Positions 1-62,985 of a stretch of 64,000 bases of DNA are shown piece by piece. The notes beneath the pieces are model-generated. The model had not been told where the DNA came from. It worked only from the letters and a program-made list of their open reading frames with translations, and did no database searches. The DNA comes from Microglena sp. YARC. Its lineage: Eukaryota > Chlorophyta > Chlorophyceae > Chlamydomonadales > Chlamydomonadaceae. The first letter of the stretch is position 1, and each line of letters starts with the position of its first letter. The stretch covers positions 58,204,265 to 58,268,264 of the forward strand of contig CM039463.1 in NCBI GenBank assembly GCA_022414725.1, read 5' to 3'. The position numbers and the translations under genes are program-made.

Positions 1-720
1 ACACAATGACCTGAGTAGGGTTTAGGGTTTGGATTGGGGTGGGGTGGGATTGGGGGGAAGCGTCACAGCCATTTAGGGGGTCCCCAGCAGCCGCATCAAA
101 ACCAGCAGACACAATGACCTATGTAGGGTTTAGGGTTTGGATTGGGGTGGGATTGGGGGGAAGCGTCACAGCCACCAAGGGAGTACCCAGCGCCAGTATC
201 AAAACCAGCTGACACAATGACCTGTGTAGGGTTTAGGGTTTGGATTGGGGTGGGGTGGGATTGGGGGGAAGCGTCACAGCCACCAAGGGAGTACCCAGCG
301 GCGGCATCAAAACCACCTGACACAATGACCTGTGTAGGGTTTAGGGTTTGGATTGGGGTGGGTGGGATTGGGGGGAAGCGTCACAGCCATTTAGGGGGTC
401 CCAAGCGGCGGCATCAAAACCAGCCGACACAATGACCTGTCTAGGGTTCAGGGTTTGGATTGGGGTGGGATTGGGGGGAAGCGTTACAGCCATTTATGGG
501 GTCCCCAGCGGCGGCATGAAAACCAGCTGACACAATGACCTGTCTAGGGTTTAGGGTTTGGATTGGGAGCAGGATCTGGGACGGGTAGGTAGGTGGAGAC
601 ATGATGAGGGGGGGAGGGGGGTGGGGTGGGCTGGGGTGGGGTGGGGTTAAAAGGGTAGGGTGGGGGTGGGTGGGGAGGGGGGCATCAAAATCTGCTGACG
701 CAATGACCTGTGAGAGAAAG
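1..720 (-). repeat. Array of about seven partial copies of the HDAC VSAGFD exon
   Basis: About 105-bp units. Read on the minus strand, each holds a pyrimidine-rich stretch with CCCTAAACCC-type motifs, a 3' splice site (CACAG, CTCAG, CATAG or GACAG), and then the start of a class II HDAC exon encoding VIVSAGFD followed by a Gly-rich LGGC- or LNGC-type loop and CDASP. Exon-start bases are near 10, 118, 221, 329, 436, 539 and 707. In the HDAC family the Asp of AGFD is a zinc ligand. The copy at 539 has His there, and the copy at 707 is degenerate (SADFD). The copy at 118 fits the family best (AGFDAAAGDPL). No donor site follows the copies, so they are 5'-truncated exon echoes and the true exon probably lies past the left edge. 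The array follows directly, in phase 0, from the exon at 1036-1203. Confidence 0.85.
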
Positions 721-1035
721 GGTAAGGAGTTAGGAGGGTAGAGAGGGGGGGGAAGAGGGGTTTTGTGGAGACATGATGAGGCGGGGAGGGGGAGGTGTGG
801 TGTGGTGTGGTGTTTGGGAGGGAGTTATAAGGGTATGGGTGGGTGGGGGTGGGGGTGGGGGTTAGGGGAGGGATGGGGTGGGGTGTGTGTGTGTGAGGGG
901 GGGGGGGGGGGGGGGGGGCAGGAGATAGGGGGGCAGGGGGGGGGACGTGGTGGTGGGCGGGGGGGGGGGGGGGGGGGGGGGGGATGGGGGGGGATGCGAA
1001 AATCATTTGTAAATAAAACAAAATTCTTCTCCTAC

Positions 1036-1203
1036 CAGGTCAGGCGCAAACTCCCGTGCTATAGGCTCCACCACAAACTGGAAGGCAGCACGGAAATCAG
1101 CATCAGTCACTCCAGGACCCCTCCAGGCCACATTGATGTTGAAGCCTGAGCCGTCCCCGTCCCCAGCTTCATCTACATCCCCGGTACCAGGGAAGAAGTA
1201 GCC
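1036..1203 (-). CDS. Class II histone deacetylase exon (FPGTG segment)
   Basis: A 56-codon exon. It starts after the acceptor TGTAG and ends at the donor CTG|GTAGGAG. It encodes GYFFPGTG, an acidic GDGDGSGFNINVAW stretch, then DADFRAAF and EPIAREFAPDL. These match the part of class II HDACs between the zinc-binding DxDVHH segment and the VSAGFD motif. Both ends are phase 0, so it joins the exon at 2373-2492 upstream and a VIVSAGFD copy downstream with no frame break. It belongs to the HDAC gene running leftward from 14,299, which would remove acetyl groups from lysines of histones or other proteins. Confidence 0.9.
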
Positions 1204-1209
1204 CTACAG

Positions 1210-2050
1210 ACATTGAGAAGTGGTTTGAAGGAGGTTGACATTCAGGTTAGAACTCTGGCAGAGTTGGTTGGTTATTGGTTGGACCGGCGTGCAACCCAAT
1301 CCACAATTGGATTGGCTCGTTGAAGGAGGTGAGGACATGCAGGCAGGAAAAGTGGTTAGAAGTGGGTTGACATTCAGGTCAGAACTCTGGCAGAGTTGGT
1401 TGGTTATTGGATGAGAATCGCAACTGTCAGAAAGATTGGTTTGCAGTAGGTTGACATTCAGGTCAGAAATCTGGCAGAGTTGGTTGGTTATTGGTTGATG
1501 TTGAAGTCTGAGCTGTCTCCCTCCCCAGCTTCATCCACATCCCCGGTACCAGGGAAGAAGTAGCCCTACATGCATTGGACATTGGTTTGGTTTCAAATAG
1601 GTTGACATTCAGGTCAGAGCTCAGGCAGAGTTGGTTGGTTATTGGTTGGACCGGCATGCAGCTCAATCCACACTTGGATGGGCTCGTTGAAGGAAGAAGT
1701 AGCCCCACATACATTGAAAAGTGTTTTGAAGTAGGTTCACATTCAGGTCAGAACTCTGTCAGAGTTGGTTGGTTATTGGTTGATAATCGCAACTGTCAGA
1801 AATATTGGTTTGGAGTAGATTGACATTCAGGTCAGAACTCTGTCAGAGTTGGTTGGTTATTGGTTGAGAATCGCAACTGTCAGAAATATTGGTTTGAAGT
1901 AGGTTGACTTTCAGGTCAGAACTCTGGCAGAGTTGGTTGGTTATAGGTTGAGAATCGCAACTCTCAGAAATATTGGCTTGATGTAGGTTGACATCGATGC
2001 GTTGAGATATACTATCACCACCATCGTCAGCCCAGCACTCACCACCACCC
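1210..2050 (-). repeat. Intronic 85-90-bp tandem repeat with HDAC exon echoes
   Basis: The unit contains GTTGACATTCAGGTCAGAA, then CTCTGGCAGAGTTGG, GGTTATTGGTTG and CGCAACTGTCAGAAATATTGG. About eight copies are present. Embedded near 1491-1565 is a second copy of the 5' part of the FPGTG exon with its acceptor, and near 1690-1704 a very short third copy. Near 1990-2015 is a stub of the YISTHR segment of the next exon upstream. The whole stretch lies in the HDAC intron between 1203 and 2373. Confidence 0.75.
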
Positions 2051-2199
2051 ACCTACCGACTCAGGACATGAGTCCCCCCCACCGATAGACCCCCCTGGAA
2101 AGAGGCTTTACCCCCCCCCCTCCCCCCTCCCCCCCACCCACCACCCACCCTCTCCCTCCCCCCTACCACACATTAAACATTACACACACATACACACAC

Positions 2200-2300
2200 A
2201 CAAAGAAACTCACACAGTCCCATCGATGAGTTGAGAATGTACATGACACTTGGGTCTGAGAAGAAGATGTGTTAGATGCTAGACCATAGAACCCCCTGGA
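2200..2300 (-). repeat. Downstream echo of the DWDVHH exon with donor
   Basis: This is a 3' partial copy of the exon at 2373-2492, covering the SDPSVMY part, with its own GTGAGTTTC donor at about 2213. A small indel changes the frame so the last residues differ. It sits immediately 3' of the real exon, as expected for a donor-side echo. Confidence 0.75.
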
Positions 2301-2372
2301 AAGAAGCTTGTATCCCCCACCCCCACCCACCCACCCACAGAAACACACACATACACACACAAAGAAACTCAC

Positions 2373-2492
2373 GTAGTCCCATCTATGTGTTGAGATGTAC
2401 ATGACGCTTGGGTCTGAGTAGAAGATGTGTTGAGTGCCATTGCCATGATGCACATCCCAATCCATGATGAGCACGCGCTTAGCACCACCCTC
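2373..2492 (-). CDS. Class II histone deacetylase exon (zinc-binding DWDVHH segment)
   Basis: A 40-codon exon bounded by the acceptor TCCACAG and the donor GTGAGTTTC, phase 0 at both ends. It encodes [21 protein letters not shown] followed by [19 protein letters not shown] in continuous frame. In class II HDACs the second Asp of DWD and the first His of VHH bind the catalytic zinc. Both are intact here, so this copy looks functional. It joins AAQK (exon 3979-4112) to GYFFPGTG (exon 1036-1203) exactly as in the protein family. Confidence 0.93.
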
Positions 2493-2609: not shown

Positions 2610-3045
2610 TCGTTTGGTCTGAGTAGAAGATGTGTTGAGTGCCATTGCCATGGTGCACACCCTAATCAATGATGAGGACACGTCTAGCACCACCCTCCTG
2701 TGTATGTGCACATAGTTTCCTTTGGTTAGATCTTGTCTTGGTCTGTTATTGATCTATTATTGGTCTATTGTTGGTATTCTTTCTGTTTTGCTATGTTATT
2801 GGTGTGGTTTTTGTCTTGTTTTGGTCTGTTATTGGTCTGTTATGAGTATGTTATTGTTATGTTTTTGGTGTGGTTTCGGTCTTGTTTTGGTTTCGGTCTT
2901 GTTTTGGGCCTGTTTTTTGTCTGTTATTGTTCTTGTTTTGGTCTTGTTTTGGTCTGAGTGAAGATGTGCTGAATGCCGTTGCTGTGGTGCACATCCCAAT
3001 CCATGATGAGGACACGTCTAGCACCACCCTCATGTGTATGTGCAC
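2610..3045 (-). repeat. Two upstream echoes of the DWDVHH exon
   Basis: Two 5' partial copies lie upstream (to the right) of the real exon. The copy starting at about 2697 keeps a CACAG acceptor but has an in-frame stop where the Trp of DWD should be, and Gly for the second Asp. The copy starting at about 3031 keeps MDWDVHHSNGIQHIF open but its acceptor AG has become AT. Between them is a T/G-rich stretch built from TTGGTCTGTTATTGG-like units and a poly-G run near 2570-2592. Confidence 0.8.
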
Positions 3046-3075
3046 ATAGGTTGCTTTGGTTAGGTCTCGTTCGGT

Positions 3076-3184: not shown

Positions 3185-3870
3185 ACAATCTGTGCAGCGT
3201 GCGCTGCCAAACCCATTTTCTGTAAATAGCACACACATGTTCACACACACAGAAACAAAACACATGCGCATCGTATCATTAATAAGCAACAAAGCCCATT
3301 TTCTGAGCCGCACGAGCTGCTACAGCCGCGTTGTTGAACTAGCACGGACATTTACACACATGTACACACACACACAAAAACAAATAGAAACAAAACACAT
3401 GGATGTTGTATCATTAATACGTAACCAAGCCCACCTAATGAGCCGCATGAGCCACCACAACCACATTCTTGAACTAGCGCAAACACACACACAGAAACAA
3501 AACACATGAACAATGTCTCATTAATACGTAACCAAGCCCACCTTCTGAGCCGGGCGAGCTGCCACAACCACATTCTTGAAGTAGCGCACACATGTACACA
3601 CACACACACACAAATAGAAACAAAACGCAAGAACATCATATGATATGATGATTCATATCATTACATTCATATCATTAAAATTCAATAAAGCCCATCTTCT
3701 GAGCTGCGCGTGCCGCCACAATCATATTCTTGAACTAGCAAGCACATGTACACATGTACACAAACACACAGAAACAAAACCTGTATTAATTTATTTATTA
3801 ATTTATTCATCCCACCTTCCGAGCTGCACGAGCGGCCACAGCTGCGTCGTTGAAGTAGCGCTCATATGCG
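3185..3870 (-). repeat. Six donor-side echoes of the HDAC RPPGHH exon
   Basis: About 115-125-bp units downstream of the exon at 3979-4112. Each holds the last 40-50 bases of that exon ([14 protein letters not shown]) and the following splice junction. The donor is kept in the copies near 3815 ([15 protein letters not shown] then GTGGGA) and 3545 (RYFKNVVVAARPAQK then GTGGGC). It is changed to AT near 3690 and 3295. The copy near 3430 ends in a stop codon, and the one near 3185 is highly diverged. CA-rich spacers and CAAAACACATG boxes separate the units. Confidence 0.85.
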
Positions 3871-3978: not shown

Positions 3979-4112
3979 CTTCTGAGCCGCACGAGCCGCC
4001 ACAGCCGCGTTGTTGAAGTAGCAGAATCCCATTGCAGTACCACTTTCGGCGTGATGGCCCGGAGGGCGGATGATAGCTGCACCATTCTTGGCTTGGCCTC
4101 GAGCTACAGCCA
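3979..4112 (-). CDS. Class II histone deacetylase exon ([15 protein letters not shown])
   Basis: A 134-bp exon: acceptor CCCTGCAG, entry phase 1, exit phase 0 at AAG|GTGTGA. It encodes [20 protein letters not shown] followed by [24 protein letters not shown]. The paired histidines of RPPGHH are the charge-relay residues of the HDAC active site, and the GFCYFNN segment is diagnostic of class II enzymes. The entry phase matches the exon ending at 5401 and the exit phase matches the exon starting at 2492. Confidence 0.93.
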
Positions 4113-4174: not shown

Positions 4175-4500
4175 CCACTCTCATCGTGATGGCCTGGAGG
4201 GCGGATGATAACGGAACCATTATTGGCTTGGCCTCGAGCTACAGCCACTGCAGGGCAGGGGAGGACAACAATACTCAGATAAATAAATATGCATATAAAT
4301 TAATTAATTAATTAATACATATTTAAATAAATATATCAATATGTAAATAAATATATATCTATACAGGCATACATATGTAAATAAATATATAAATATTTAA
4401 ATAAATGAATACATAATTGAATAAATCCCACTCTCAGCTTGATGGCCTGGAGGGCGGATGATAGCGGCACCATTATTGGCTTGGCCTTGAGCAACAGCCA
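4175..4500 (-). repeat. Two acceptor-side echoes of the RPPGHH exon
   Basis: Two 5' partial copies upstream of the real exon, with starts near 4247 and 4500. The first ([23 protein letters not shown]) has an intact CTGCAG acceptor. The second has RPPGHQ, losing one catalytic His, and a CTGAAG acceptor. Both are cut off before the exon's 3' end and run into A/T-rich AAATAAATA spacer, so neither can replace the real exon without a new donor. Confidence 0.85.
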
Positions 4501-4519
4501 CTTCAGGGCAGGGGAAGAC

Positions 4520-4860
4520 ATTATTTAATCTGCTATATTTGGGGTTGGCAAGTACGATATCGAATAGGTTCAGGCCTCACTGGGGTCTGGTTATAACATG
4601 TGGAGTCTGTGTAGCTCATATAACAGGGACTGTCACAATTTTACATGTAGCCCATATAATGATACGATGATACGATGATATATATATATATATATGTGTG
4701 TAGCTCATATAACAGGAACTAATACATTAAACATATAATACAAATTATATACATAAAACATATAATACACATAATACACTCTAGACATATACCGGTATAC
4801 CTTGCATACATATAATATGTCAAAAATTGAGTATATTTTAAATTCTGAATTTGTTTCCAC
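4520..4860 (-). other. HDAC intron segment, AT-rich
   Basis: Non-coding intron sequence with TA-rich microsatellite (TATATATATA near 4680-4695) and repeated AGCTCATATAACAGG boxes. No coding or RNA feature was recognised. Confidence 0.5.
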
Positions 4861-4864: not shown

Positions 4865-5400
4865 ATGCCTCACCGGCTATATCTGCAGCACTGCCAGCTG
4901 CCAGCCTGGCACACTCACCAGCTATACCTGCAGCACTGCCAGCTGCCAGCCTGGCACACTCACCAGCTATACCTGCAGCACTGCCTGCTGCCAGCCTGGC
5001 ACACTCACCACCTATACCGCAGCACTGCAAGCTGCCAGCCTGGCACACTCACAGGCTATACCTGCAGCACTACCAGCTGCCAGCCTGGCACATTGAGCGG
5101 AGTGAGCGTTGAAGTAGCAGTCGTGGATGTATGACTCACCGGCTATATCTGCAGCACTGCCAGCTGCCAGCCTGGCACATTGAGCGGTGTGTGCGTTGAA
5201 GTAGCAGTCGTGGATGTATGACTCACCGGCTATATCTGCAGCACTGCCAGCTGCCAGCCTGGCACATTGAGCGGTGTGAGCGTTGAAGTAGCAGTCGTGG
5301 ATGTATTACTCACCGGCTATATCTGCAGCACTGCCAGCTGCCAGCCTGGCACATTGAGCGGTGTGAGCGTTGAAGTAGCAGTCGTGGATGTATGACTCAC
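4865..5400 (-). repeat. Donor-side echo array of the HDAC CARLAAGS exon
   Basis: About ten copies of the 3' end of the exon at 5401-5553, each followed by a GTGAG donor. The right part has 87-bp units (29 codons: SYIHDCYF, NAHTAQ, CARLAAGSAADIAGE) with junctions near 5140, 5226, 5313 and 5400. The left part has 45-bp units (15 codons, CARLAAGSAAGIAGE). Both unit lengths are multiples of three and the first units are open in frame with the real exon. Choosing a later donor would therefore lengthen the protein by whole repeats instead of shifting the frame. Confidence 0.88.
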
Positions 5401-5553
5401 CGGCTATATCTGCAGCACTGCCAGCTGCCAGCCTGGCACATTGAGCGGTGTGAGCGTTGAAGTAGCAGTCGTGGATGTATGAGCTGGCATCCAAGGCATC
5501 TTCTGAGATAGCATCCATGTTACCAGTCCCTTCGCCCTTGTTCTTAGCAGCCA
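5401..5553 (-). CDS. Class II histone deacetylase exon (CARLAAGS segment)
   Basis: A 153-bp exon: acceptor CAATGCAG at the 5' side, donor GCCG|GTGAGTC, phase 1 in and phase 1 out. It encodes AAKNKGEGTGNMDAISEDAL, DASSYIHDCYF and NAHTAQCARLAAGSAADIA. This matches the class II HDAC segment D-x-Y-x(n)-S/T-x(3)-A-R-L-A-A-G that precedes RPPGHH. It is the only copy in the array that has the acceptor-side half. Confidence 0.92.
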
Positions 5554-6193: not shown

Positions 6194-6304
6194 CTTGCTC
6201 AGAGGCTTGTTGTACTGCCACCACCAACTCCTTTTGATGCACTGCAACAAGCTCTTCAGTGCGTGCCTCCCTAGCTGCCATGTGGGTGCAGCGCTCCACC
6301 AAGC
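6194..6304 (-). CDS. Class II histone deacetylase exon (REARTEELVAVH)
   Basis: A 111-bp exon: acceptor AACTCACAG, donor CAAG|GTAGGGC, phase 1 at both ends. It encodes LVERCTHMAAREARTEELVA followed by VHQKELVVAVQQASEQ. This matches the R-x-A-T-x-E-E-L-x-x-V-H segment following the HPERPxR motif in class II HDACs. It joins CLTAEG from the preceding exon. Confidence 0.88.
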
Positions 6305-6314: not shown

Positions 6315-6409
6315 AAAAGGGATGATGTACAGTCTGTGATGGTGTACTGCAACAAGCGCATCAGTGCGTGCCACTCTGGCATCCACGTGGGTGCAGCGCC
6401 CAACTAAGC
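6315..6409 (-). repeat. Acceptor-side echo of the REARTEE exon
   Basis: An upstream partial copy with its own CGCACAG acceptor at 6410, encoding LVGRCTHVDARVARTDALVAVHH. It diverges before the exon's 3' end and has no matching donor. Confidence 0.8.
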
Positions 6410-6414
6410 CTGTG

Positions 6415-6960
6415 CGCTGCTTTTCTTTTCAGCTACCAGCACCAGCTTCTAGGCAGCTCCCTGAGACTGCTACTGGGCCACAGCCAAAGATTTCAGGAGC
6501 ACTGGAAAGCTGACGGTAGCAGCACTGTTTTTCTTTTCAGCTACCAGCACCAGCTTCTAGGCAGCTCCCTGAGACTGCTACTGGGCCACAGCCAAAGATT
6601 TCAGGAGCACTGGAAAGCTGACGGTATCAGCACTGTTGTTCTTTTCAGCTACCAGCCCCAGCTTCTATGCAGCTCCCTGAGACTGCTACTGGGCCACAGC
6701 CAAAGATTTTAGGAGCACTGAAAAGCTGACGGTATCAGCACTGTTGTTCTTTTCAGCTACCAGCCCCAGCTTCTATGCAGCTCCCTGAGACTGCTACTGG
6801 GCCACAGCCAAAGATTTCAGGAGCACTGGAAAGCTGACGGTATCAGCACTGTTGTTCTTTTCAGCTACCAGCCCCAGCTTCTAGGCAGCTCCCTGAGACT
6901 GCTACTGGGCCACAGCCAAAGATTCAAGGAGCACTGGGAATCAGACAGTACCAGCTTCCA
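6415..6960. repeat. 108-bp satellite, five units, derived from a MITE half
   Basis: Five near-identical units of about 108 bp, each CACTGTT, TTCTTTTCAGCTACCAGC, CCAGCTTCTAGGCAGCTCCC, then GCCACAGCCAAAGATT and AAAGCTGACGG. Each corresponds to the left half of the CACTG-ended MITE family seen complete at 12,398-12,600 and 40,289-40,491. Lies in the HDAC intron just upstream of the echo at 6409. Confidence 0.8.
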
Positions 6961-8610: not shown

Positions 8611-8614
8611 CCAC

Positions 8615-8760
8615 CTTCAGCTGTAAGACACTCCCAGATGGCCGAAATGCGATCCGGGCGCTCCGGATGGTCCCTCGCGTCTACATTCTTCAGCATGTGC
8701 TCATCATAAGCAAGCAAGGTGCCAGCGCTGTGGCCTTCACCCCCACTTCCCAAGCCTATT
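8615..8760 (-). repeat. Second copy of the HDAC HPERPDR exon end, intact
   Basis: A donor-side copy of the preceding exon. It encodes SAGTLLAYDEHMLKNVDARD followed by HPERPDRISAIWECLTAEG, and ends at a GAAG|GTGGGTGGG donor identical to the real one. Relative to the real exon it changes L to H, H to N and I to V in the TLLAYDE half. It is open and could act as an alternative exon if an acceptor upstream of it is used (the CCCCACTTCCCAAG region); otherwise it is an echo. Confidence 0.75.
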
Positions 8761-8802: not shown

Positions 8803-10066
8803 CTTCAGCTGTAAGACACTCCCAGATGGCCGAAATGCGATCTGGGCGCTCCGGATGGTCCCTCGCATCTATATGCTTAAGCATGAGCTCATCATAAGCG
8901 AGCAAGGTGCCAGCGCTGTAGCCTTCACCCGCTCTCCCCAAGCCTATTCCCGAGGTTTGGGCTAAGCCCCCCTGAGCCGCCTGGTCCCCAGATGCCGACC
9001 TGTCTAATGCGTGCAGATGCTTCATAGCTACTACGCCTCGAACCCCATCCCTGTCACCCCTTCCTGCGGCGGGCTGTCCAGGAAGGATACCAAGGGGTGC
9101 TGACAGGGCGTGGAACACAGCAGTGCGACCGCAATCGGCTTGGCCCCCGTCTACGATGCTGCTGGTGAGCGCCGGCTTCACAGGCCCCTCAGAGGAGTGG
9201 AAGAGGGGGTGTCCACATGGGTGGCGACAAGCCGTGCACACACTACCCTGGAAGTCCTTAGTGCAATTCCTGCAGATATGGACTTCCGGGCGGGGGGGCG
9301 CGCCACTGTCACCCATGTCGTCGTCATCGATACTGTTGTTGTTGTCTCGTTCCTCGCTGTCCCCGCTGCTGCTTGTCAGTCCGCCGCTATCCACGTCGAA
9401 ATCAGGGGCAGCCACAGTGGTGTTGAAGGGCACTGAGACAGGGTTTGCATCTCTGTCGCTATAAGGCGCCGACACAGGGTTTCCACCCCTGTTGTTATAA
9501 GGTACCGACACAGGGTTTGCCTCGCTGTGGCTGAGGGGTGCCGCCACGGGTTTTAAATCCCTGCTGCTGAAAGGCAACGAGACAGGGTTTCCACCCCTGT
9601 TGTTATAAGGTACCGACATGGGGTGTGCATCCCTGTTGCCGAAAGGCGCCGAGACAGGGTTTGCATTGCTAGAACAGAAGGGCACTGAGCTAGCGGCTGC
9701 AGGGCAGTGCGAAGAGAACACAGGTATGAAAAACGAGTGAGGAGTCACATCAGCAGCTTTCATGCGTGCACTGGGAGAGAATGCGACCGCCGTGGAGGTG
9801 CAGGGGTCTGAGCTGTCCGCGGCACCCGCCTGATCCTGAGCAGCGACTTGGGGGTGCTGTGCTAGCTGCTGCTGTTGTTGCTGTAGCTGCTGTTGCTCTC
9901 TCGCTCGTGCTTGCGCTTGCTGCTGCTGTTGTTGTTGTAGTTGTTGTTGCTTTTGTTGTTGCTGCTGCTGTTGTTGTTGCAGCTGCTGCTGTTGCTGTTC
10001 CAAAATGGATGGGGGGGGAGGGAGGGAAGGAGCAGAGCAGAAGTCGTGCATCAGCTCATTGACATC
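8803..10066 (-). CDS. Histone deacetylase large exon: Gln-rich, CxxC motif, start of HDAC domain
   Basis: A 1264-bp exon: acceptor CTTCAACAG, phase 0; donor GAAG|GTGGGTGG, phase 1. It begins DVNELMHDFCSAP. It continues with a Gln-rich tract (CAG/CAA-coded, plus-strand 9865-10,005) and a tandem repeat of about 19 residues containing NPVSVPYNNRGG- or GNRDAHPMSVPY-type units. A strongly acidic SGDSEERDNNN/DDDD stretch follows, then a possible zinc-binding CRNC-x8-CTAC motif and a linker. The exon ends with SAGTLLAYDELMLKHIDARD and HPERPDRISAIWECLTAEG, the N-terminal motif of class II HDAC domains. The CxxC pair resembles but does not match a RanBP2-type finger. Confidence 0.85.
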
Positions 10067-12085: not shown

Positions 12086-12250
12086 CTGTTTGGGAATGAA
12101 AGAGTGACGCTGGAGGCCACATCTGCGCATGATAAGAGTGAGGGGAAGAGTAGGTTGCCTATTTGGGACTGAAAGGGTGATATTGGAGGCCACATCTGCG
12201 CATGATAAGAGTGAGGGGGAAGAGTAGGTTGCCTGTTTGGGACGGAAACG
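12086..12250 (-). repeat. Acceptor-side echoes of the Gln-rich exon
   Basis: Two further copies of about 76 bp lie upstream of the exon start at 12,085. Each has CCCAAATAG or CCCAAACAG followed by GCAACCTACTCTTCCCC, and a GATGTGGCCTCCA box. Same geometry as the other exon-edge arrays. Confidence 0.7.
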
Positions 12251-34001: not shown

Positions 34002-35976
34002 CTAATCCCTGCCCCCCCAAATGCCAGACAATGCTTTGGACAGCCTCCTTTTTAACGACTCCGTTTTTGTCAGATCTGCCCCCCCCTCGCTCATCTTCCC
34101 AATACACTCCCTGCTGATGCGGCCCAGTTCCTCTGAACTACCCACACCAGGATGAGTGCATCCCCCTGCCCTCGGTCCAGCGGGCTGCCTGCCACCCTCA
34201 TTGAATGAAGCACCCAGCTTGTGGGAGGCCCTACCGCTCTTATTTCGGCCACCTGTCTTGTCATCTGGCTCAAAGAGACAGTTATAGGTCCGGGGAAGAG
34301 TGTCCGCTTGCAGGTCTACAGACTTGTTCGTTGCAAGGGTCTTGTCTGCCCTGTCGCCCATCGCCGCCCAGTTGGATGGGAGTATGGACACCGACTTCGA
34401 CAGGAACTGCTTGGACTGGGCAAGGCCCCGGGAGTCACGGTCGCAGTGGCGATTTGTATCGTCCTCCAAGTCGAGACGAGCGGCGTGGGAGGAGGGGAGT
34501 GGCGTGGGAAGGGGAGTGGGATGGAAGGGGGGCCGTCGTGGGGAGGCATCTGAGGGTGTGGGTTGTATCAAAACATCATCAGCAGCGCCAAATAGACACT
34601 TGGTGACCTCGGTGTTTGCACACGATGCATCTTGTGTTGGGACTTGAAGCTCCGCCCTCTGTCCATGCACCAAGGGTGTAGGTTGCAACAGCACATCAAC
34701 TGCCCTATCTCTATCAAGAGGTTCGGTGGCCTTGGTGTTAGCACTCAATGCATCTTGAGTTGGGACTTGAAGCTCCGCCCTCTGTCCATGCATCAAGGAC
34801 ATGGTATGCAACAGCACATCAGCAGCACTTTGTGGCACTGATTTGACGTCAGAGTCCAGGCTGTCATGCTGTAGGAAGTCTTGGGGCACTGAGTTGACGT
34901 CAGAGTCCAGGCTGTCATGCTGTGGGGAGTTTTGTGGCACTGATTTGACGTCAAATTCCAGGCTGTTATGCTGTGGGAAGTCTTGTGGCATTGAGTTGAC
35001 GTCAGAGTCCAGGCTGTCATGCTGTGGGGAGTCTTGTGGCATTGAGTTGACGTCAGAGTCCAGGCTGTCATGCTGTGGGGAGTCTTGTGGCATTGAGTTG
35101 ACGTCATAGTCCAGGCTGTCATGCTGTGGGGAGTCTTGTGGCATTGAGTTGACGTCAGAGTCCAGGCTGTCATGCTGTGGGGAGTCTTGTGGCATTGAGT
35201 TGGCGTCATAGTCCAGGCTGTCATGCTGTGGGGAGTCTTGGGGCACTGAGCTGACGTCATAGTCCAGGCTGTCATGCTGTGGGGAGTCTTGTGGCATTGA
35301 GTTGACGTTAGAGTCCAGGCTGTCATGCTGTGGGGAGTCTTGTGGCACTGATTTGACGTCTGAGTCACTGGGTTCGGGCCAGTCTCCCCCCACGGTGTAC
35401 AGAGGGGAGACTTGGTGCGAGGGGGAGTCATGGGTGCCATGCTGGGGTGGGTGCATGTACAGATCACCCTCCCCCCGGCTCATGCACTCAATCGAATGCG
35501 CCTGAGTCAAATGCGCCGGAGTCAAATGTGCCGAAGTCAAATGCGCCTGAGTCAAATGCGCAGGAGTCAAATGTGCCGAAGTCAAATGCGCCTGAGTCAA
35601 ATGCGCCTGAGTCAAATGTGCCGAAGTCAAATGCGCCGGAGTCCCCTGGGCTTCGAACAGTGGGTTGTGGATGCTGGGACTGCGCCCCGCAGAGATACTG
35701 CCATAAACTTGGGCTGGTACTAGGTCCAAGAGTGGGTCTTTAGCACTAGGACTGCACCAATCTGAGATCCCACCATGCTCCTGGGCATATTCTAGGTCCA
35801 ATAGTGGGTCTGGGGTGTTGGGATTGTGCTCATCTGATCCCCTGAGCTGCCTGTAGTCAGGCCCCTGGCCTAATGGGGGATTGTTGACGCTGCGGCTCTG
35901 TATGTTGGATCGCCCTACGCGTCTCTGGGTCAACCCCATGAGTATCTGGGGGACCGTCTCCAACTCAGGCATCGAA
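34002..35976 (-). CDS. Last exon of the giant coiled-coil gene
   Basis: Acceptor CTCCTTTGCAG, entry phase 2, which fits the exon ending at 37,649. It ends at a stop at 34,002 after KRRLSKALSGIWGGRD. It contains two coding repeats. One is a 5-residue AHLTQ/AHLTS/AHLTP repeat of about eleven units (35,500-35,640). The other is an 18-residue repeat SLDSDVNSMPQDSPQHD (54 bp, about eleven units, 34,830-35,370). A later pair of repeats contains LVHGQRAELQVPTQDA with ANTKATE or ANTEVTK. Acidic and Ser/Gln-rich, probably disordered. No known domain. Confidence 0.75.
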
Positions 35977-37648: not shown

Positions 37649-37782
37649 CTGCGAAGCATCTCCTCATCCAGCCTCTGGCGAATGCTCTCACCAAAGCTTG
37701 GGCTTTGGCTCCCAACCTCCATGGAGCTCCGCAGCTGCACATCAGCATCCAGAAGCAAGCTAGCAAGGGAGTCCAATCGATT
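37649..37782 (-). CDS. Giant gene exon (NRLDSLASLLLDADVQLR)
   Basis: 134 bp: acceptor CGATCTGCAG, entry phase 0, exit phase 2 at CGCAG|GTGCGCTG. It encodes NRLDSLASLLLDADVQLRSS, MEVGSQSPSFGES and IRQRLDEEMLR, amphipathic and likely helical. It joins the exon ending at 41,096 upstream and the last exon downstream with matching phases. Confidence 0.75.
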
Positions 37783-41095: not shown

Positions 41096-41545
41096 CTGCA
41101 GCTGGTCCACCCGCTTGAGCATGGGAGCAGCTTCAGGGGATAGTGCAAGGTTGGGGTCAGCCGTAATGCAACCACCGCCAACACTGACTACTGCTCCGCC
41201 GCTACTGCCCGTTCCCTGCCTTGCCCTGCTGCTCCTACTTAAGGGTAGGCTCTCAGCAGACAGATACATCTTGGCCCCAGCTGTCATGGGCCTGCTGCCA
41301 GTGAGCCCAATTCCACTGCTGTAGGTGCGCCCCCCCCGGGAGACACCTCGGGTGACGCGCGGGCGACCTGGCCCAGGCATGGCAGCTGGAAAGGTGGCGG
41401 GGTGGGTGTCCAGGGTGCGTGCATGGAGGGGGGGCATGCCACTGATGCCTCCGTTGCTGCATGTGCGCAGCCGGGTCTGGCCGCAAGTGCGCAAAAATCC
41501 ACCCGCCAAACTCTGGGCCAGGTGCTGGAGGTCGTTGAATTCAAA
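41096..41545 (-). CDS. Giant gene exon (150 codons)
   Basis: Acceptor CCCCTTTTCAG, donor CTGCAG|GTGTGTATC, phase 0 at both ends. It encodes FEFNDLQHLAQSLAGGFLRT and continues through SNGGISGMPPLHARTLDTHP, GLTGSRPMTAGAKMYLSAES to PNLALSPEAAPMLKRVDQLQ. No known domain; Gly/Ser/Pro-rich with short helical ends. The phases fit the exons at 42,593 and 37,782. Confidence 0.75.
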
Positions 41546-41880: not shown

Positions 41881-41914
41881 TTAGGTTAGGCACATGATAT
41901 CTACGCTCACGTTT

Positions 41915-42592: not shown

Positions 42593-43846
42593 CTCATCTT
42601 CTCCTGACCTTGGGGTGTCTGCCCTGCTAGCTAAGGCCAACATCTCGTCCATATCCGGCCAATTGTGCCCATCTGAGCTACTGGTTTTACATTCGTAGCT
42701 CCACCCCTTGTCCTCCTGTCTGGGTGTGCTGCGTGGGGTCCTGCAATCGCGGCTCCACCCCTTCCCTTCCTGGCCGGGAGTGCTGAGTGGGGACATCGCG
42801 ATCATCACATTTGCCCTGTGTCCAGTAGAACCAATCGTATTGGTGCCAGGCCCATGTAGGTTGCGAGGCATGGCGCTCATCATATTAGCACCATGTCCAA
42901 TTGCACCCATCGTATTGGCGCCACGTCCAATAGCACCCATCGTATCAGCGCCATGCTCATGTAGGTTGCCAGGCATGGCGTTCATCATGTTGGTGCTATG
43001 TCCAATAGCATCAGTCGCATTGGCGCCATGTCCAATAGCACCCATCATATCAGCGCCATGCCCATGTGGGTTGCGAGGCATGGCGTTCATCATGTTGGTG
43101 CTATGTCCAATAGCATCAGTCGCATTGGCGCCATGTCCAATAGCACCCATCATATCAGCGCCATGCCCATGTGGGTTGCGAGGCATGGCGTTCATCATGT
43201 TGGTGCTATGTCCAATAGCATCAGTCGCATTGGCGCCATGTCCAATAGCACCCATCATATCAGCGCCATGCCCATGTGGGTTGCGAGGCATGGCGTTCAT
43301 CATGTTGTTGCTATGTCTAATAGCACCCGTCGCATTGGCGCCACGTCCAATAGCATCCATCCTATCAGGGTCATGCCCATGTAGGTTGCGAGGCATGGTC
43401 ATCACATTGGCACCGTGTCCAATAGCACCCACCGTATTGGCACCACGTCCAATAGCATCCATCGTATCAGCGCCTTGCCCATGCAGGTTGCGAGGCATGG
43501 CGTTCATTATGTTGCTGCTATGTCCAATAGCACCCGTCGCATTGGCGCCATGCCCAAAGGCACCCATCGTATCAGGGCCATGCCCATGTGGGTTGCGAGG
43601 CATGGCGTTCATATCGGCGTCACTTATTTCATCACCTATCTCACTATGAAGGTCACTATGAACGTCACTGTGAACATCACTTTGATTGTCACTGTGAATG
43701 TCACTGGGGGCCTGGCTGCTGGCATTGTGCTCGTAAGGGTACTGGCCGGGAGAGCCACCTCTTTGGGGGGTTCCTAGGGTGTCGTTGAGACGCATGGCAA
43801 CAAGGTCGGCTTGCAGAGCTAGTAGGTCCTGCTCCATGGTCTGCGT
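42593..43846 (-). CDS. Giant gene exon with 35-residue repeats
   Basis: 418 codons: acceptor CACATACGCAG, donor GAG|GTGAGTTTAG, phase 0 at both ends. It begins TQTMEQDLLALQADLVAMRL (amphipathic helix), then an Asp/Ser/His repeat (SDVHSDVHSDLHSEIGDEIS). About seven repeats of 30-35 residues follow, built on MNAMPRNPHGHGADMMGAIG and HGANATDAIGHSTNM (43,610-42,850). The C-terminal part repeats GHNWPDMDEMLALASRADTP. The repeat has no Cys/His spacing of a zinc motif. Function unknown. Confidence 0.8.
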
Positions 43847-47265: not shown

Positions 47266-47420
47266 CTGCTCCATGAAGGTTGTAGAGAAGGGGCTATTGA
47301 CAGAGGTTGAATACTCAGGAGAAGGTGGCGGCGGTGGAGACCCGAAACCTTCCCCCTCATCCATCCCATCGGCTTCCAGACGTCTCATACTCAGTGGGCC
47401 CACACCAAACATGGAAGCAT
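47266..47420 (-). CDS. Giant gene exon (FGVGPLSMRRLEADG)
   Basis: 155 bp: acceptor CGCCCCCTGCAG, entry phase 1, exit phase 0 at GAGCAG|GTTAGTC. It encodes ASMFGVGPLSMRRLEADGMD, EGEGFGSPPPPPSPEYS and TSVNSPFSTTFMEQ. Entry matches the exon ending at 49,331 and exit matches the exon starting at 43,846. Confidence 0.75.
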
Positions 47421-49330: not shown

Positions 49331-49460
49331 CTGTGGACTGGCACTGGGATCGCAGTGCGGAGATCTCTTGTAGAGATGACATGAGGTCGCCCATGAGCGA
49401 ACCGATGCGCCCGTGAAGCATCTCGATGTACTCTTCATGCGCAGTCACCAGCGATTCCTC
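49331..49460 (-). CDS. Giant gene exon (HEEYIEMLHGRIGSLMGDLM)
   Basis: 130 bp: acceptor ATCTTTGCAG, entry phase 0, exit phase 1 at CCACAG|GTACTCC. It encodes EESLVTAHEEYIEMLHGR, IGSLMGDLMSSLQE and ISALRSQCQST, a probable coiled coil. Entry matches the exon ending at 54,487. The intron downstream holds a 70-bp GC-rich stretch. Confidence 0.8.
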
Positions 49461-54486: not shown

Positions 54487-57291
54487 CTGGGCTGTAGAGA
54501 CCACCCTCAAAAAGCAGATCTCGACCAAATGGCGAATGCTTTGTCTGTCAACACACGATTGAAGCTCCTTTGCATGTGCTTCATGATGAGTTGCGCAGCT
54601 CTCAAGCTCAACGTGGGGCATGCATGCAGTTTCAAGCAGCTCAAGATGAGCTTTAGCCAGGGCGTCCTTCTCAGACAGCAGTTCCATAACTTGCTCAGCA
54701 TGAGTCACCGCCATAGCTTCCTCCTCTGCTTTAAGAATTTCAAGCTGCTCAGCCAGGCACTTAATCTGCAGTGCCAGGCTGTCAGCATTAATTGCATGCT
54801 GTTCGTGAAGGCTCCTAAGCTGCTCAGCATGAGCCACGGCCATCGCCTCCTTTTCTAATTGCATGCCATTAATCTGCTCGGCATGAGCCACCGCCATAGC
54901 CTCCTTCCCTGCTTCAAGATTTCCAAGTAGCTCAAGATGTGCTTTGGCCAGAGCGTCCTTCTCAGACTGCAGGTCAGCATGAGCCATGGCCATAGTCTCT
55001 TCTTCTGCTTTAAGAGTTCCAAGCTGCTCAGCATGAGCCATCGCCATGTTATCCTTCTCAGACTGCAAGTTAGCAACCTGGTCAGCATGAGCCACCGCCA
55101 TAGCCTCCTTCTCTGCTTCGAGATTCCCAAGCTGCGCAAGATGTGCTTTAGCCAGGGCGTCCTTCTCAGACAGCAGTTTCATAACTTGCTCAGCATGAGT
55201 CACCGCCATAGCCTTCTCCTCTGCTTTAAGAATTTCAAGCTGCTCAGCCAGGCACTCAATCTGTAGTGCCAGGCTGTCAGCACCAATAGCATGCTGTTCG
55301 TGAAGGCTCCTAAGCTGCTCAGTATGAGCCACGGCCATCGCCTCCTTCTCTAATTGCATGTCATTAATCTGCTCAGCATGAGCCACCGCCATAGCCTCCT
55401 TCCCTGCTTCAAGATTTCCAAGTAGCTCAAGATGTGCTTTGGCCAGAGCGTCCTTCTCAGACTGCAGGTCAGCATGAGCCACGGCCATAGTCTCTTCCTC
55501 TGCTTTAAGAGTTCCAAGCTGTTCAGCATGAGCCATCGCCATGTTATCCTTCTCAGACTGCAAGTTAGCAACCTGGTCAGCATGAGCCACCGCTATAGCC
55601 TCCTTCTCTGCTTCGACAGTTTCAATCAGCTCACGATGTGCTTTAGCCAGAGCGTCCTTCTCAGACTGCAGGTCAGTATGAGCCACCGCTACAGCCTCCT
55701 TTTCTGCTTTAAGAGTTCCAAGCTGCTCAGCATGGGTCACTGCCATGTTATCCTTCTCAGACTGCAAGTTAGTAACCTGGTCAGCATGAGTCACCGCCAT
55801 AGCCTCCTCCCCTGCTCCAAGATTTTCAAGCAGCTCGCGATGTGCTGCCACCAGGGAGTCCTTCTCAGATAGCAGTTTCATAACTTGCTCAGCATGAGTC
55901 AGCGCCATAGCCTTCTCCTCTGCTTTAAGAATTTCAAGCTGCTCAGCTAGGCACTCAACCTGCAGTGCCAGGCTGTCAGCACCAATAGCATGCTGTGCTT
56001 CAAGGCCCCTAAGCTGCTCAGCATGAGCCATCGCCATGTTATCCTTCTCAGACTGCAAGTTAGCAACCTGGTCAGCATGAGCCACCGCCATAGCCTCCTT
56101 CTCTGCTCCGAGAGTGTCAAGCTGCCCAGCATGTGCTTTAGCCAGGGTGTCCCTCTCAGACTGCAGGTCAGCAACCTGCTCGGCATGACCCACCGCCATA
56201 GCCTTCTTTTCTGCTTTAAGAGTTCCAAGCAGCTCAGCCAGGCACTCAACCTCCTGTTCCAGGCTGTCAGCACCAACTGCTTGCTGCTCCTTCACCTCAG
56301 CTTGGAATGTGCCCCTCTCTACAGTCTGGGAGTCCGCCATGCCGGCCAGCACACCCTCCAAGCGTGCTTGCAGTGCACACACCTCTAACTCATGACTAAG
56401 TGCTACTTCGTCCAGAGCTGCCTGATGGGTCCTCTCTTGCTCTGATAGACTCTCCTCCAGCACCTGCACCTCAGCTTGGAATGTGCGCCGCTCTACAGTG
56501 TGTAAGTCACGGACATTGGTCAGCGCGCAAAGCAGCTGACGTTCTGAAGACTGCATATGCGCTGTGAAGGTCTGTGTCAAATCTTGAATTGAACGTTCAA
56601 GGCAGAAGACCTCCTCCTGGTGTGCATCCCTCTCTGCCTGGAAATCCTGGACTAGGAGGGCGCCTGCTTGGAATTGCGCATTCCTCTCTGCCTGGAGGCT
56701 CTGAATTTGAAGGGCGCTTGCTTTAACGAGTGCATCCCTCTCTGTCCGGAAATCCTGAACTAGGAGGGCACTTGTTTGAAATTGTGCATCCCTCTCTGCC
56801 TGGAGGCTCTGAATTTGGAGGGCGCTTGCTTGAACGAGTGTATCCCTCTCTGCCTGGAGTCTCTGAATTTGGAGGGTGTTCGCTTTAGCGAGTGTATCCA
56901 TCTCTGCCTGGAGGCTCTGAATCTGTAAGGCACTTGCTTTACCGATTTCATCCCTCTCTGCCTGGAGGCTCTGAATTTGGAGGGCGCTTGCTTGAACGTG
57001 TTCATCCCTCTCTGCCTGGAAGCTCTGAATTTGTAAGGCACTTGCTTTACCGATTTCATCCCTCTCTGCTTGGAGGCTCTGAATCTGGAGGGCGCTTGCT
57101 TGAAAGTGCGCATTCCTCTCTGCCTGGAAATCCTGAACTTGGAGCGCACTTGCTTTACCCATTTCGTCCCTCTCGGCCTGGAGAGCTTCGACTTGAACAG
57201 CTTGGGCCTCCATCAGAGAGTAAGTTGCAACAGGATTTGCTGCCAGGCTGTACTCCTGACGAGCTTGCATCCCTGGTTTGGAGTTGCCTAT
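54487..57291 (-). CDS. Giant gene main coiled-coil exon
   Basis: 935 open codons: acceptor CTCCTTGCCAG, donor GCCCAG|GTAAAGTTC, exit phase 0. After IGNSKPGMQARQEYSLAANP come about twelve repeats of 19-20 residues (ASALQIQSLQAERDEIGK). A non-repeat coiled coil follows (VEECxQDLTQTFTAHMQSSE region, TFQAEVQVLEESLSEQERTH). Then come long nested repeats of KEAMAVAHADQVANLQSEKD, NMAMAHAEQLGTLKAE and ALQIECLAEQLEILKAEEKA (54,870-56,260; a block of about 470 bp occurs twice). Strong heptad character throughout; no motor, kinase or membrane segment. A structural coiled-coil protein of unknown role. Confidence 0.88.
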
Positions 57292-58972
57292 CTGGCAAGG
57301 AGGGAGGGAGCTCTGAGAGAGAGCAGCGGGCTCTGAGAGAGGGAAGGGAGGGAGGGGGAGGGAGCAGGGGGCAGGGAGGGAGGGAAGGAAGGGGAGGGAA
57401 CAGCGAGCTCTGAGAGTGGTGAGTGAGCTCTGAGAGAGAGAGGCAAAACAGATCTCGACTGCGTCGCTCTGACTAGCTGCAAATGGACTCCGTGCTGTCA
57501 TATGCCCTGAGTCAGTGGTCTGCAGGACCCAGCGGTTGAGAGGGCGGTTGGAGGCGGGCTTGTTGGCTGCAGCTGGCACAGGGTCTGCCTGCTTGGAGCC
57601 GGCACGAGACATCTCAGTGTTGGAGGATGGCTTGTTGGCCACAGCTGGCACAGGTTCTGCCTGCTTGGAGCCGGCGCGAGACAGGTCAGCGTTGGCTGCA
57701 TTGGAGCAGGGTGCTATAATAGGGGAGGGCAATGCAGCACCAGCAGCAGTAGCAGCACCACCAGTACCACCACCACCGCCAGCAGCAGTGCCAATACCAC
57801 TACCGGCAGCAGCAGCAGCACCACCAGTACCACCACCACCGCCAGCAGCAGTGCCAATACCACCACCGCCAGCAGCAGCAGCACCACCAGTACCACCACC
57901 ACCACCAGCAGTGCCAATACCACCACCGGCAGCAGCAGCAGCAGCAGCAGCAGTGCCAGTACCACCACCAGCAGCAGCAGCAGCACCGCCGCCGCCAGCA
58001 GCACCACCAGTACCACAGCCAGCGGCAGTACCACCACCACCGCCAGCAGCAGCAGCGGCAGCAGTGCCAGTACCACCACCGGCAGCAGCAGCAGCAGCAG
58101 CAGCAGTGCCAGTACCACCACCGGCAGCAGCAGCAGCAGCACCTCCACCACAGCCGGCAGCAGAAGCAGCAGCACCACCAGTGCTGAGCATCTGGAGCTC
58201 TGTGTGTATCTCTTCAGCCAAGCCTTGCGTCAGCCTCAGGACTTTGCTCTTATGCTCCTCGCACATTAGATCCATCAGTTTGGCAGATTCCACACTGCGT
58301 AAAGCAAGATCCATCTTCAGCAACGCATTTTCATGCTCAGCATCCCATTTGACGGAGTCAGAGGCCGGTAAGGACATCCTCAATGAGCTTGAGCGCCCGT
58401 GTGGGGAGCCTCTTCTTGCAGGAGTTGGCCGTCGATTCGGGGATTGGGTCAGGGCCCTTCCCGATGAGTCGGAGGCCGGTAAGGACATCCTCAATGAGCT
58501 TGAGCGCCCGTGTGGGGAGCCTCTTCTTGGAGGAGTTGGCAGTCGATTCGGGGATTGGGTCAGGGCCCTTCCCGATGATTCGGAGGCCGGTAAGGACATC
58601 CTCAAGGGGGTGGCGCGTCCGTGTGGGGAACCTCTTCTTGGAGGAGTTAGCTGTCGATTCGGGGTTTGGGTCAGAGCCCTTCCCTCCGACCTGTGACAGG
58701 TCCTCTTTGGGGAACTGCCTGGGGAAAGCCTGCTTTTGAGGGCTGATTTCTGTGGAGAGGTGGCAACGGATCGCCTGCTTTTGAGGGAGGACTTCGTTGG
58801 GGAGCTGCCAGGGGAGCGCCTGCTGTTCAGGGGTGGTTTCTTTGGGGAAGTGGCAGGGGGGCACCTGCGCTTATACCACGCCTTCCATGGCTTGCGCGCT
58901 GCGTGTAGAGAGCTTGTAGCTCCTGCATGGGCCACGCGAGCGTGGTGGCTGATACGCGCAGTGCCGGAGTGC
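57292..58972 (-). CDS. Giant gene N-terminal region: basic SP repeats and Ala/Gly-rich tract
   Basis: Open in the same frame as the coiled-coil exon. It begins at a GGATGCAG acceptor (entry phase 2), so the true start codon is upstream; the open frame has GTG, not ATG, at 58,935. Features in order: basic S/T-P repeats (NSRRSPGSSPTKSSLKSRRS); three 38-residue repeats (GRALTQSPNRRPTPARRGSP; 58,350-58,690); a helical stretch (KWDAEHENALLKMDLALRSV); a long Ala/Gly tract (57,735-58,180); and two SRAGSKQADPVPAAANKPAS repeats. The stretch 57,292-57,465 is pyrimidine-rich and probably an in-frame intron. SP/TP density suggests cyclin-dependent or other proline-directed phosphorylation (inference). 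Confidence 0.8.
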
Positions 58973-60675: not shown

Positions 60676-60677
60676 GG

Positions 60678-60954: not shown

Positions 60955-61015
60955 ACTAGTAGCTGCTGCATGGGCTACACGGACGTTTCAGCTGGTACGC
61001 GCCATGCCAGAGTGC
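60955..61015 (-). repeat. Upstream echo of exon start 58,972
   Basis: On the minus strand it has ATGGATGCAG, then GCACTCTGGCATGGCGCGTA and CCAGCTGAAACG, matching the exon start at 58,972 (GGATGCAG, then GCACTCCGGCACTGCGCGTA). A second stub with the acceptor TGTATGCAG starts at 61,432 (GCCCTCCAGCATGGGGCGTA). Both are acceptor-side copies, now separated by other insertions. Confidence 0.75.
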
Positions 61016-61189
61016 CTGCATCCATGTTTTGTCATGCATTTTTGTTTGATGTGTGTTTATGTATTTTTGTGCTTACAAGCTTGAGAGCCAGCATCCAAAC
61101 AGGTTGTGTTTACACTTATTCGCTTGATTGTTTCACACGCATCCGTACGCATGATGATTTGTTTCTGTATAGCCTCTTTCAGTGATATG

Positions 61190-61405
61190 CATTGGTCTAG
61201 GGGTAGACTAAATCACTTTAAGAATGAAGAGTCGGGGGGTTGACTCCCCCTTCGGTCGCTCTTGGCGTTGCAGGTCGTCGTCAACCGCTATGGTAGCTTG
61301 TCCAGTTGTGGTAGGAGACCGCTCCCCACCTGCTTTCGACGGGCTCCCTTAACACCACGCCCCACCAGGCGTTATCATTACCTTGTTTCTGTGTACAATA
61401 AAACA
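61190..61405 (+). mobile_element. tRNA-derived SINE, copy 1
   Basis: The head resembles a tRNA: A box TGGTCTAGGGG, paired D arm (GTCTA/TAGAC), degenerate B box GGTTGACTCC in a GGGGG/CCCCC stem. The body is GTCGTCAACCGCTATGGTAG, CTTGTCCAG, then GGGCTCCCTTAACACCACGC and CCACCAGGCG. The body matches the minus-strand copy at 36,290-36,535. The tRNA head is too degenerate to be a working tRNA gene. Confidence 0.75.
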
Positions 61406-61659
61406 ATCCTGATACGCCCCATGCTGGAGGGCCTGCATACAATCAGGATTAGCTTTATATATATATAACCTAGTTTACAACAACATTCTGCATACATGTA
61501 TAATACCCTAGTATACAACAACATTCTGCCTACCCAGGCCATCCAGGTTCAATGCATGTAGAACAATCTTATGGAGGGGTCACATAACAATATACATGGG
61601 CAGGATCACTGGTATCATATATGCATATGTATAGGGGTCACATATACATGAACCAGGGT

Positions 61660-61845
61660 TTCTCCCGCTTTATATAGCGATCGCTAGTTTTGACCCCGTT
61701 TTGGCAAAATTATCGCTATAAAATGAAAACAAATCGTTTTTCTGTTTGCCCTGAAAAGCTGTAAAAGCTATAAAAAAGCTATAAAATATTTAAAATCACC
61801 AAAACGCTGTCCCTGGAGGAGGCCTAAAACCATAGAGCTAGAAAA
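61660..61845 (+). mobile_element. Dispersed family D, copy 2
   Basis: TATATAGCGATCGCTAGTTT, TGACCCCGTTTTGGC, CTGTTTGCCCTGAAAAGC, AAACGCTGTCCCTGGAGGAGG and CCTAAAACCATAGAGC, co-linear with 39,733-39,890. Confidence 0.72.
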
Positions 61846-61877
61846 AAACTATCAGATTTGAAATGTAAAACTGACAT

Positions 61878-61962
61878 GTTTAGGGTTCACATACATGTCA
61901 GTCTATGTGACATGTATAGGGTTCACATACATGTCAGTCTATGTGACATGTAAGTGACATAA
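61878..61962. repeat. Palindrome-containing 42-bp repeat
   Basis: Two copies of TAGGGTTCACATACATGTCA followed by GTCTATGTGACATGTA. ACATACATGTCA and TATGTGACATGT pair with each other. Confidence 0.7.
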
Positions 61963-62043
61963 ACTGGCATGTTCCAGTGATGGTAACATGTCAGTTTATA
62001 CAAAAAAAAGAATTTTATTTTAAATAAAAATCACTGTTCACAC

Positions 62044-62083
62044 CTTGATGATCTTTCATTGACAGCTTGGCTCCAGAAGTACT
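62044..62083 (-). CDS. Probable 40-bp exon
   Basis: Acceptor CACCACTGCAG, donor CATCAAG|GTGTGAAC. Two of three frames are open (YFWSQAVNERSS or STSGAKLSMKDHQ). It is called an exon because it stands at the 3' end of an array of its own 5' portion, as every recognised exon in the window does. It may be an upstream exon of the giant gene. No function can be assigned. Confidence 0.5.
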
Positions 62084-62985
62084 CTGCAGTGGTGATCGAA
62101 TGGTGGTGGTGGTGGTTGAGTGGTGGTTGGTGATGGTGATGGTGGTGGTGATGATGATGACAGCTTGGCTCCAGGAGTACTTTGCAGTGGTGGTTGAATG
62201 GTGGTGGTGGTGGTGGTGGTTGAGTGATGGTTGGTGATGGTGGTGGTGGTGATGATGACAGCTTGGCTCCAGAAGTACTCTGCAGTGGTGGTTGAATGGT
62301 GGTGATGGTGGTGTTGGTGGTGGTTGAGTGGTGGTTGGTGATGGTGGTGGTGGTGATGATGATGGCAGCTTGGCTCCAGAAGTACTCTGCAGTGGTGGTT
62401 GAATGGTGGTGGTTGAGTGGTGGTTGGTGATGGTGGTGGTGATGATGATGATGACAGCTTGGCTCCAGAAGTACTCTGCAGTGGTGGTTGAATGGTGGTG
62501 GTGGTGGTTGTGGAGGTGGTTGAGTGGTGGTTGGTAATGGTGGTGGTGATGATGATGATGACAGCTTGGCTCCAGAAGTACTCTGCAGTGGTGGTTGAAT
62601 GGTGGTGGTGGTGGTTGTGGAGGTGGTTGAGTGATGGTTGGTGATGGTGGTGGTGATGATGATGATGACAGCTTGGCTCCAGAAGTACTCTGCAGTGGTG
62701 GTTGAATGGTGGTGGTGGTGGTTGCAGTGGTGGTTGAATGGTGGTTGGTGATGGTGGTGGTGATGATGATGATGACAGCTTGGCTCCAGAAGTACTCTGC
62801 AGTGGTGGTTGAATGGTGGTGGTGGTGGTGGTTGTGGAGGTGGTTGAGTGGTGGTTGGTGATGGTGGTGGTGATGATGATGATGACAGCTTGGCCCCAGA
62901 AGTACTCTGCAGTGGTGGTTGAATGGTGGTGGTTGGTGGAGGTTGAGTGGTGGTTGGTGCATTGGCTCCAGGGTACAGCTATCAC
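62084..62985 (-). repeat. Acceptor-side echo array of the 40-bp exon
   Basis: Eight units of about 100-115 bp. On the minus strand each has CCACCACTGCAG, then AGTACTTCTGGAGCCAAGCT and GTCATCATCATC, then (CACCAC)n spacer. Every unit has the exon's first 20-24 bases and then departs into ATCATC repeats. The His-rich frames crossing it are not genes. Confidence 0.8.

Follow-up and report, generated by a model that had tools for sequence, protein, structure and literature searches.

Tandem copies of exon edges are known from amphioxus as "mirages," the original report of which is said to be that of Canestro in 2002. Two papers describe mirages as duplications, of a minisatellite-like kind, that cover an exon-intron boundary at the 5′ or the 3′ end of the exon, with units of 10-160 bp, in the Adh3, globin, and troponin C genes, with similar repeats in PGBD5 (PMC3087553, PMC3902484). 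Many, though not all, mirage copies keep the AG or GT dinucleotide, and reverse-transcription PCR (RT-PCR) suggests that regular splicing is undisturbed (PMC3087553). Here, we analyze a stretch of 64,000 nucleotides (the window) of the green alga Microglena sp. YARC, on contig CM039463.1 (C2:58204265-58268264 of a genome of 568 Mb in 2,390 contigs), in which the exons of a histone deacetylase (HDAC) gene and of a second gene (gene 2) are flanked by partial copies, or echoes, of their own edges. We conclude that these exon-edge copies quite probably result from a genome-wide tandem duplication of short stretches, filtered by selection for one intact exon.

Each of 30 exon-intron junctions in the window was represented by a query of 60 nt of exon and 40 nt of intron, which was searched against both strands of the entire window (E ≤ 1e-3), and a junction-crossing copy was required to contain at least 12 nt of exon. 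By this rule, 21 junctions have crossing copies, 73 on the expected side and 0 on the other, the expected side being outward, that is, upstream for 5′ exon ends and downstream for 3′ exon ends. The last HDAC exon, E7, has 10 bases in the window, below the 12-nt rule, and a separate comparison found 5 upstream copies of its start. In total, 22/30 junctions are echoed, in 12 acceptor and 10 donor families, and 78/78 crossing copies lie on the expected side, in agreement with the fixed polarity without counter-example that a preliminary description of this DNA had claimed. Its statement that nearly every exon is echoed holds for exons, all of which have copies except gene 2 exon O and the exon ending at 10480, but not for exon ends, since 8/30 junctions (E1 5′, E2 3′, E3 5′, E6 3′, the end at 10480, G 3′, Jx 5′, and O 5′) have no copy in the whole window at E ≤ 1e-3. 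The echo positions that it listed are accurate within tens of bases, but the copy placed near 45,955 falls under the threshold. Nine exon-only matches were labeled as wrong-side; eight of these are the exon G 5′ copies, counted again because exon G is only 40 nt long, and the ninth continues an E5 5′ copy. Two further exon-only matches lie on the expected side. Identity between copy and exon edge is 72-99%, many copies falling below E 1e-10 and thus beyond chance, and each exon edge matched only copies beside its own exon, never the exon across the intron. Within the E1-E7 introns of the HDAC gene, 44% of the bases align to their own junctions, and 82% lie in some local direct repeat.

Both genes are on the minus strand, the HDAC gene at the low end of the window and gene 2 at 34-62 kb. 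The HDAC exon ends were set without using the echoes, by tblastn with 120 homologues and frame continuity, and the exon ends of both genes were also checked by frame chains with GT-AG introns. Joined in this way, HDAC exons E1-E6 give 650 open codons, and gene 2 exons G-F-H-Jx-K-M-N-O give 2,873 codons with a terminal stop only; GT starts and AG ends are found in 13/13 introns. Two boundaries, an exon start at 12122 and the exon end at 10480, are only predicted. The exons and their echoes are as follows.

8803..10066, minus strand: HDAC exon E1; 3′ end echoed downstream at 8606-8674, 8400-8497, and 7514-7583.
6194..6304, minus strand: HDAC exon E2; 5′ end echoed upstream at 6350-6414.
5401..5553, minus strand: HDAC exon E3; 3′ end in 8 downstream copies, 4865-5373, with 87-bp and 45-bp units.
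3979..4112, minus strand: HDAC exon E4; 5′ end copied upstream (4188-4287, 4441-4520); 3′ end in 5 downstream copies, 3278-3859.
2373..2492, minus strand: HDAC exon E5; 5′ end copied upstream (2638-2730, 2974-3063); 3′ end copied downstream (2182-2273).
1036..1203, minus strand: HDAC exon E6; 5′ end copied upstream (1508-1610, 1692-1744).
1..10, minus strand: first bases of HDAC exon E7, the rest of which lies beyond the window; 5′ end in 5 upstream copies, 109-564.
12136..12234, minus strand: echo of the predicted HDAC-gene exon start at 12122, an exon without a verified frame chain.
62044..62083, minus strand: gene 2 exon G, 40 nt; 5′ end in 8 upstream copies, 62158-62950.
54487..58972, minus strand: gene 2 exon F; 5′ end copied upstream (60956-61024, 61409-61457); 3′ end in 13 downstream copies, 52018-54377.
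49331..49460, minus strand: gene 2 exon H; 5′ end in 3 upstream copies within 49494-50414; 3′ end echoed downstream at 48954-48996.
47266..47420, minus strand: gene 2 exon Jx; 3′ end copied downstream (47045-47092).
42593..43846, minus strand: gene 2 exon K, which contains an in-frame 105-bp coding array; 5′ end in 5 upstream copies within 44071-45229; 3′ end copied downstream (42497-42562, 42324-42389).
41096..41545, minus strand: gene 2 exon M; 5′ end copied upstream (41726-41783, 41828-41886); 3′ end copied downstream (40727-40825), with an additional exon-only copy at 40559-40594.
37649..37782, minus strand: gene 2 exon N; 5′ end in 5 upstream copies within 37915-38662; 3′ end in 5 downstream copies within 36813-37503.
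34002..35976, minus strand: gene 2 last exon O; 5′ end without echo; in-frame 51-bp and 45-bp coding arrays.

The same pattern is found elsewhere in the genome. A first set of 50 loci combined all of the 26 HDAC matches with the 30 best among 64 chaperonin matches, after removal of 6 matches from the window gene; 10 kinesin exons taken by rank were added. This gave 60 exon cores, which are profile matches rather than full exons, each kept with 1.5 kb on either side. Edge copies occur at 30/60 cores and at 43/120 edges, and they differ by 4-36% from the exon edge. The preliminary description had proposed aligning exons to their own flanks and scoring the side; in this sample, 174/174 edge copies are on the expected side. 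A further 17 copies (14 + 3) are interior-only and 2 are inverted, inversion having been scored in the HDAC and chaperonin loci. Among the first 50 loci, 1/34 edges is echoed where the flank cover by local repeats is below 0.3 (17 loci), and 33/66 in the others (33 loci). In six HDAC and chaperonin loci (L001, L027, L029, L032, L037, and L039), local repeats make up only 0-9% of the flanks; L027 and L032, which have long unbroken frames, may be organelle-type or foreign genes.

The telling feature is which copies are absent. As a locus-matched control, segments of core length were drawn from each locus's flanks and scored by the same rule. Whole-exon copies were found at 0/60 core loci vs 14.2 expected, and interior-only copies at 11 loci vs 23.1 expected (P = 6e-5), in line with the neutral reading in the preliminary description that only duplications keeping one good exon survive. 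The side rule is partly geometry and partly a consequence of one intact exon. Matched flank segments have a polarity of 2989:2936 overall and of 2251:624 in those without whole copies, and the first 50 cores have 142:0, which goes beyond the geometric share because a single intact exon is retained. An explanation of polarity by pure geometry was rejected, matched non-exon segments having given 206:256 and 237:252 (right:wrong). The interior of exons bears the mark of the same filter: array periods are divisible by 3 in 13/14 cases in exons, 3/9 at junctions, and 18/39 in introns; the exon count is 11/12 when an array in a retrotransposon frame and another in a predicted exon are set aside. The array at 57317-57398, with a period of 41, is the only one in a verified exon with a period that 3 does not divide, and it may mark an unrecognized short intron in exon F.

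In the mechanism that we propose, short DNA stretches would duplicate side by side throughout the genome. A unit of about 45-370 bp, running from a start in an intron to an end in an exon, could be duplicated without harm, since the genuine exon would stay connected to the rest of its sequence and the extra edge, with its splice site, would end up in the intron and be spliced out. A unit within an exon would survive only if the frame is kept, a unit containing the whole exon would be lost, and repeated rounds would lengthen introns, partly from their own ends. We simulated random tandem duplication in which events inside or across exons were discarded. With ancestral introns of 200 bp and one copy per event, 7.9 (standard deviation 1.4) of the 12 HDAC junctions became echoed and 45% of the intron sequence was junction-derived, compared with 9/12 and 44% in the real HDAC gene; a simpler version of the simulation behaved similarly. 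The simulation supports the sufficiency of duplication plus filter, not its uniqueness.

Several points weigh against this explanation. The simulation fits only with short ancestral introns and mainly one-copy events: two copies per event gave 3.9-6.0 and four copies 3.0-4.0 echoed junctions out of 12, with P(≥9) at most 0.03. Outside the window, core edges are the ends of profile matches rather than proven splice sites, and with internal stops in 11/50 HDAC and chaperonin cores, some of the cores could be broken genes or extend across an intron. Open frames were what identified exons, which biases the frame result in part. Finally, the cover by local repeats is maximal 100-200 nt outside the core (0.54) and is 0.35 at 1.4-1.5 kb, where repeat partners run off the fetched end.

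Alternatively, splice junctions could themselves start duplications, through paused transcription, R-loops, or splicing-linked nicking, and exon edges would then be mutational hot spots. We consider this quite unlikely. Echoes at 22/30 window junctions would fit such a process, and the 9/12 of the HDAC gene does exceed neutral placement when several copies per event are simulated (P at most 0.03), but the matched controls show no excess at junctions. Cores with edge copies number 30, against 32.6/60 expected from locus-matched segments with edge or whole copies. An earlier 50-locus run gave 24 cores (48%) with edge copies vs 834/2,256 segments lacking whole copies (37%), and of the two comparisons the locus-matched sum over 60 loci is the fairer one. 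The cover by local repeats is 0.48 over the 100 nt adjoining the core, reaches its maximum in the next 100 nt, and is 0.46-0.51 out to 1.1 kb, without a peak at the exon core itself. Other stretches of the genome are equally repetitive: ten taken at round coordinates have a mean cover of 0.45, the same as exon flanks (range 0-1.0, with 1,000 masked bases in one of the ten). Within the HDAC gene, 21/33 junction tiles are covered vs 242/306 intron-interior tiles. Splice junctions are not duplication hot spots, and the idea in the preliminary description that they may act as initiation points finds no support in the core counts, the absence of a peak at the core, and the ten equally repetitive stretches. 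A lack of enrichment over other local tandem repeats, which that description listed among the results that would refute it, is what was observed for the version specific to junctions. Homology at breakpoints was also considered, and nothing was concluded from it, the 158 near-perfect pairs being mostly inside multi-copy arrays.

The copies could also have been retained for a function, as alternative exon ends or as decoys that tune splicing. Indeed, AG or GT is kept in 73/78 window copies, and in this sense the introns of the window are, at the level of sequence, the "libraries of decoy splice sites" of the preliminary description. In the two gene chains, 72/77 copies have an intact splice site when GC donors are allowed. 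If used, 8 of these 72 intact decoys are predicted to leave the product in frame and free of stops, and for six junctions the decoy of this kind is the closest one, which also favors a function. However, 58 of the 72 would bring in a stop and 6 more a frame shift alone, and copies are equally common at exons and in non-exon sequence. Within the window, several of the nearest copies are open and keep the frame, but the offsets of nearest copies outside it are divisible by 3 in only 11/43 cases, without frame preference, and a frame constraint on the nearest copy was therefore dropped. Retention for function is, on this evidence, very unlikely. Selection against decoys was tried as well and rejected, since splice dinucleotides are lost no faster than neighboring positions. 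They seem better kept than most intron-side positions, and we claim no excess conservation because the dinucleotides adjoin the aligned exon base.

It is highly improbable that the introns are new and were created by the duplications, a duplicated AGGT site giving rise to an intron. Donor and acceptor copies do lie in the same intron in many cases, and amphioxus mirages have been proposed as a source of new introns (PMC3087553), but the model needs flanking exons to share the duplicated piece, and window edges match only beside their own exon. That the arrays are assembly artefacts is extremely unlikely: copy number is a frequent error in assembled tandem arrays, but these copies diverge by 1-28% from the exon edge in the window and by 4-36% elsewhere, the pattern occurs at 30/60 cores on several contigs, and the in-frame exon chains are intact.

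Tandem duplication filtered for one intact exon thus remains the preferred explanation, and the matched controls indicate that no special mechanism is needed beyond it, tandem duplication and protection of one intact exon being enough. It offers a concrete route for intron lengthening. In such genomes, exon-like matches inside introns will mislead gene prediction, and the many natural decoys lend themselves to asking how true splice sites are chosen. Pairing of the nearest donor and acceptor across an intron would, we infer, select decoys. A tentative and rather doubtful extension is that introns grow outward from their own junctions, with rows of near-identical donor and acceptor decoys facing each other, and that this lineage must recognize its sites across exons or non-locally. 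If true, this would provide a natural test bench for exon vs intron definition in a unicellular eukaryote and make a mechanism of intron lengthening visible.

The top homologue of the window HDAC is from Pleodorina starrii (58% identity), with Dunaliella salina at 55%, and the nearest solved structures are HDAC6, HDAC7, and HDAC4. Gene 2 (34002-62083, minus strand) is predicted to encode a repeat-rich protein of at least 2,873 residues. Its long exon has 0 homologues at E ≤ 1e-5 among 7,981 scored candidates, of which repeat-rich ones may have crowded out others, and Pfam scans of pieces of the protein gave weak or repeat-type matches only. At 47577-48510 lies an array of exon-like units of ~81 bp bounded by CAG and GTG, most copies of which have stops; this array at 47.6-48.5 kb was left out as a gene 2 exon, since H and Jx join in frame without it. 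The space between the two genes is occupied by retrotransposons. A Copia-type element (15000-26729, plus strand; Pol_BBD, integrase, RVT_2) is interrupted in its reverse-transcriptase domain by a long interspersed nuclear element (LINE) with endonuclease and RVT_1 domains, RVT_2 profile positions 3-85 being found before the LINE and 83-237 after it. The 94-nt end repeats of this Copia-type element, at 15000 and 26636, are 100% identical. A LINE protein has 100% identity over 54% of the query to EukProt entry gene28679-biopygen32588; this match and the HDAC homology point to a green-algal host. A second Copia-type element (27340-32087, minus strand; gag, zinc knuckle, Pol_BBD) has 234-nt end repeats that are 98% identical. 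By eye, short stretches at 12410-12600 and 40310-40480 have inverted ends (GCAGCTTCTAGGCAGCTCCC and similar) like those of miniature inverted-repeat transposable elements, and the intron arrays at 6423-6955 and 41919-42220 seem to be built from the same ends.

Among known systems, the exon-edge copies resemble several in part. Rogers in 1989 is said to have described how introns can arise when an AGGT proto-splice site is duplicated in tandem, a process that likewise copies splice-site sequence; here, in contrast, the spare copies lie inside introns, and no piece is common to both flanking exons for any of the 30 window queries. Tandem exon duplication of the Dscam type yields alternative exons, and it shares with the present case tandem copies within one gene that adjoin the original exon, but whole-exon copies were found at none of the 60 sampled cores, where 14.2 were expected. 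Introners, which are mobile intron-making elements (PMC9860276), also make introns rich in repeated sequence. Whereas introners put one sequence into many introns, junction matches in the window that cover 12 nt of exon or more were local, each specific to its own junction.

The closest likeness is to mirages. Both consist of tandem units across an exon-intron boundary (here 78 copies at 22/30 junctions), both affect either the 5′ or the 3′ boundary (here 12 acceptor and 10 donor families), and in both many but not all copies have AG or GT (here 73/78). Unit sizes overlap, those in the alga reaching about 370 bp. Splicing at mirages was checked by RT-PCR, whereas normal splicing in the alga is inferred from the open frame chains of 650 and 2,873 codons. 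An open literature search found no report of such exon-edge repeats from a green alga, which leaves room for one to exist. Judged from sequence, the exon-edge copies of the alga would be a new member of the mirage kind. In these papers, mirages are described from single amphioxus genes, unlike the copies at 22/30 window junctions and 30/60 sampled cores of a green alga; what is new here is the host, the density, and the matched controls.

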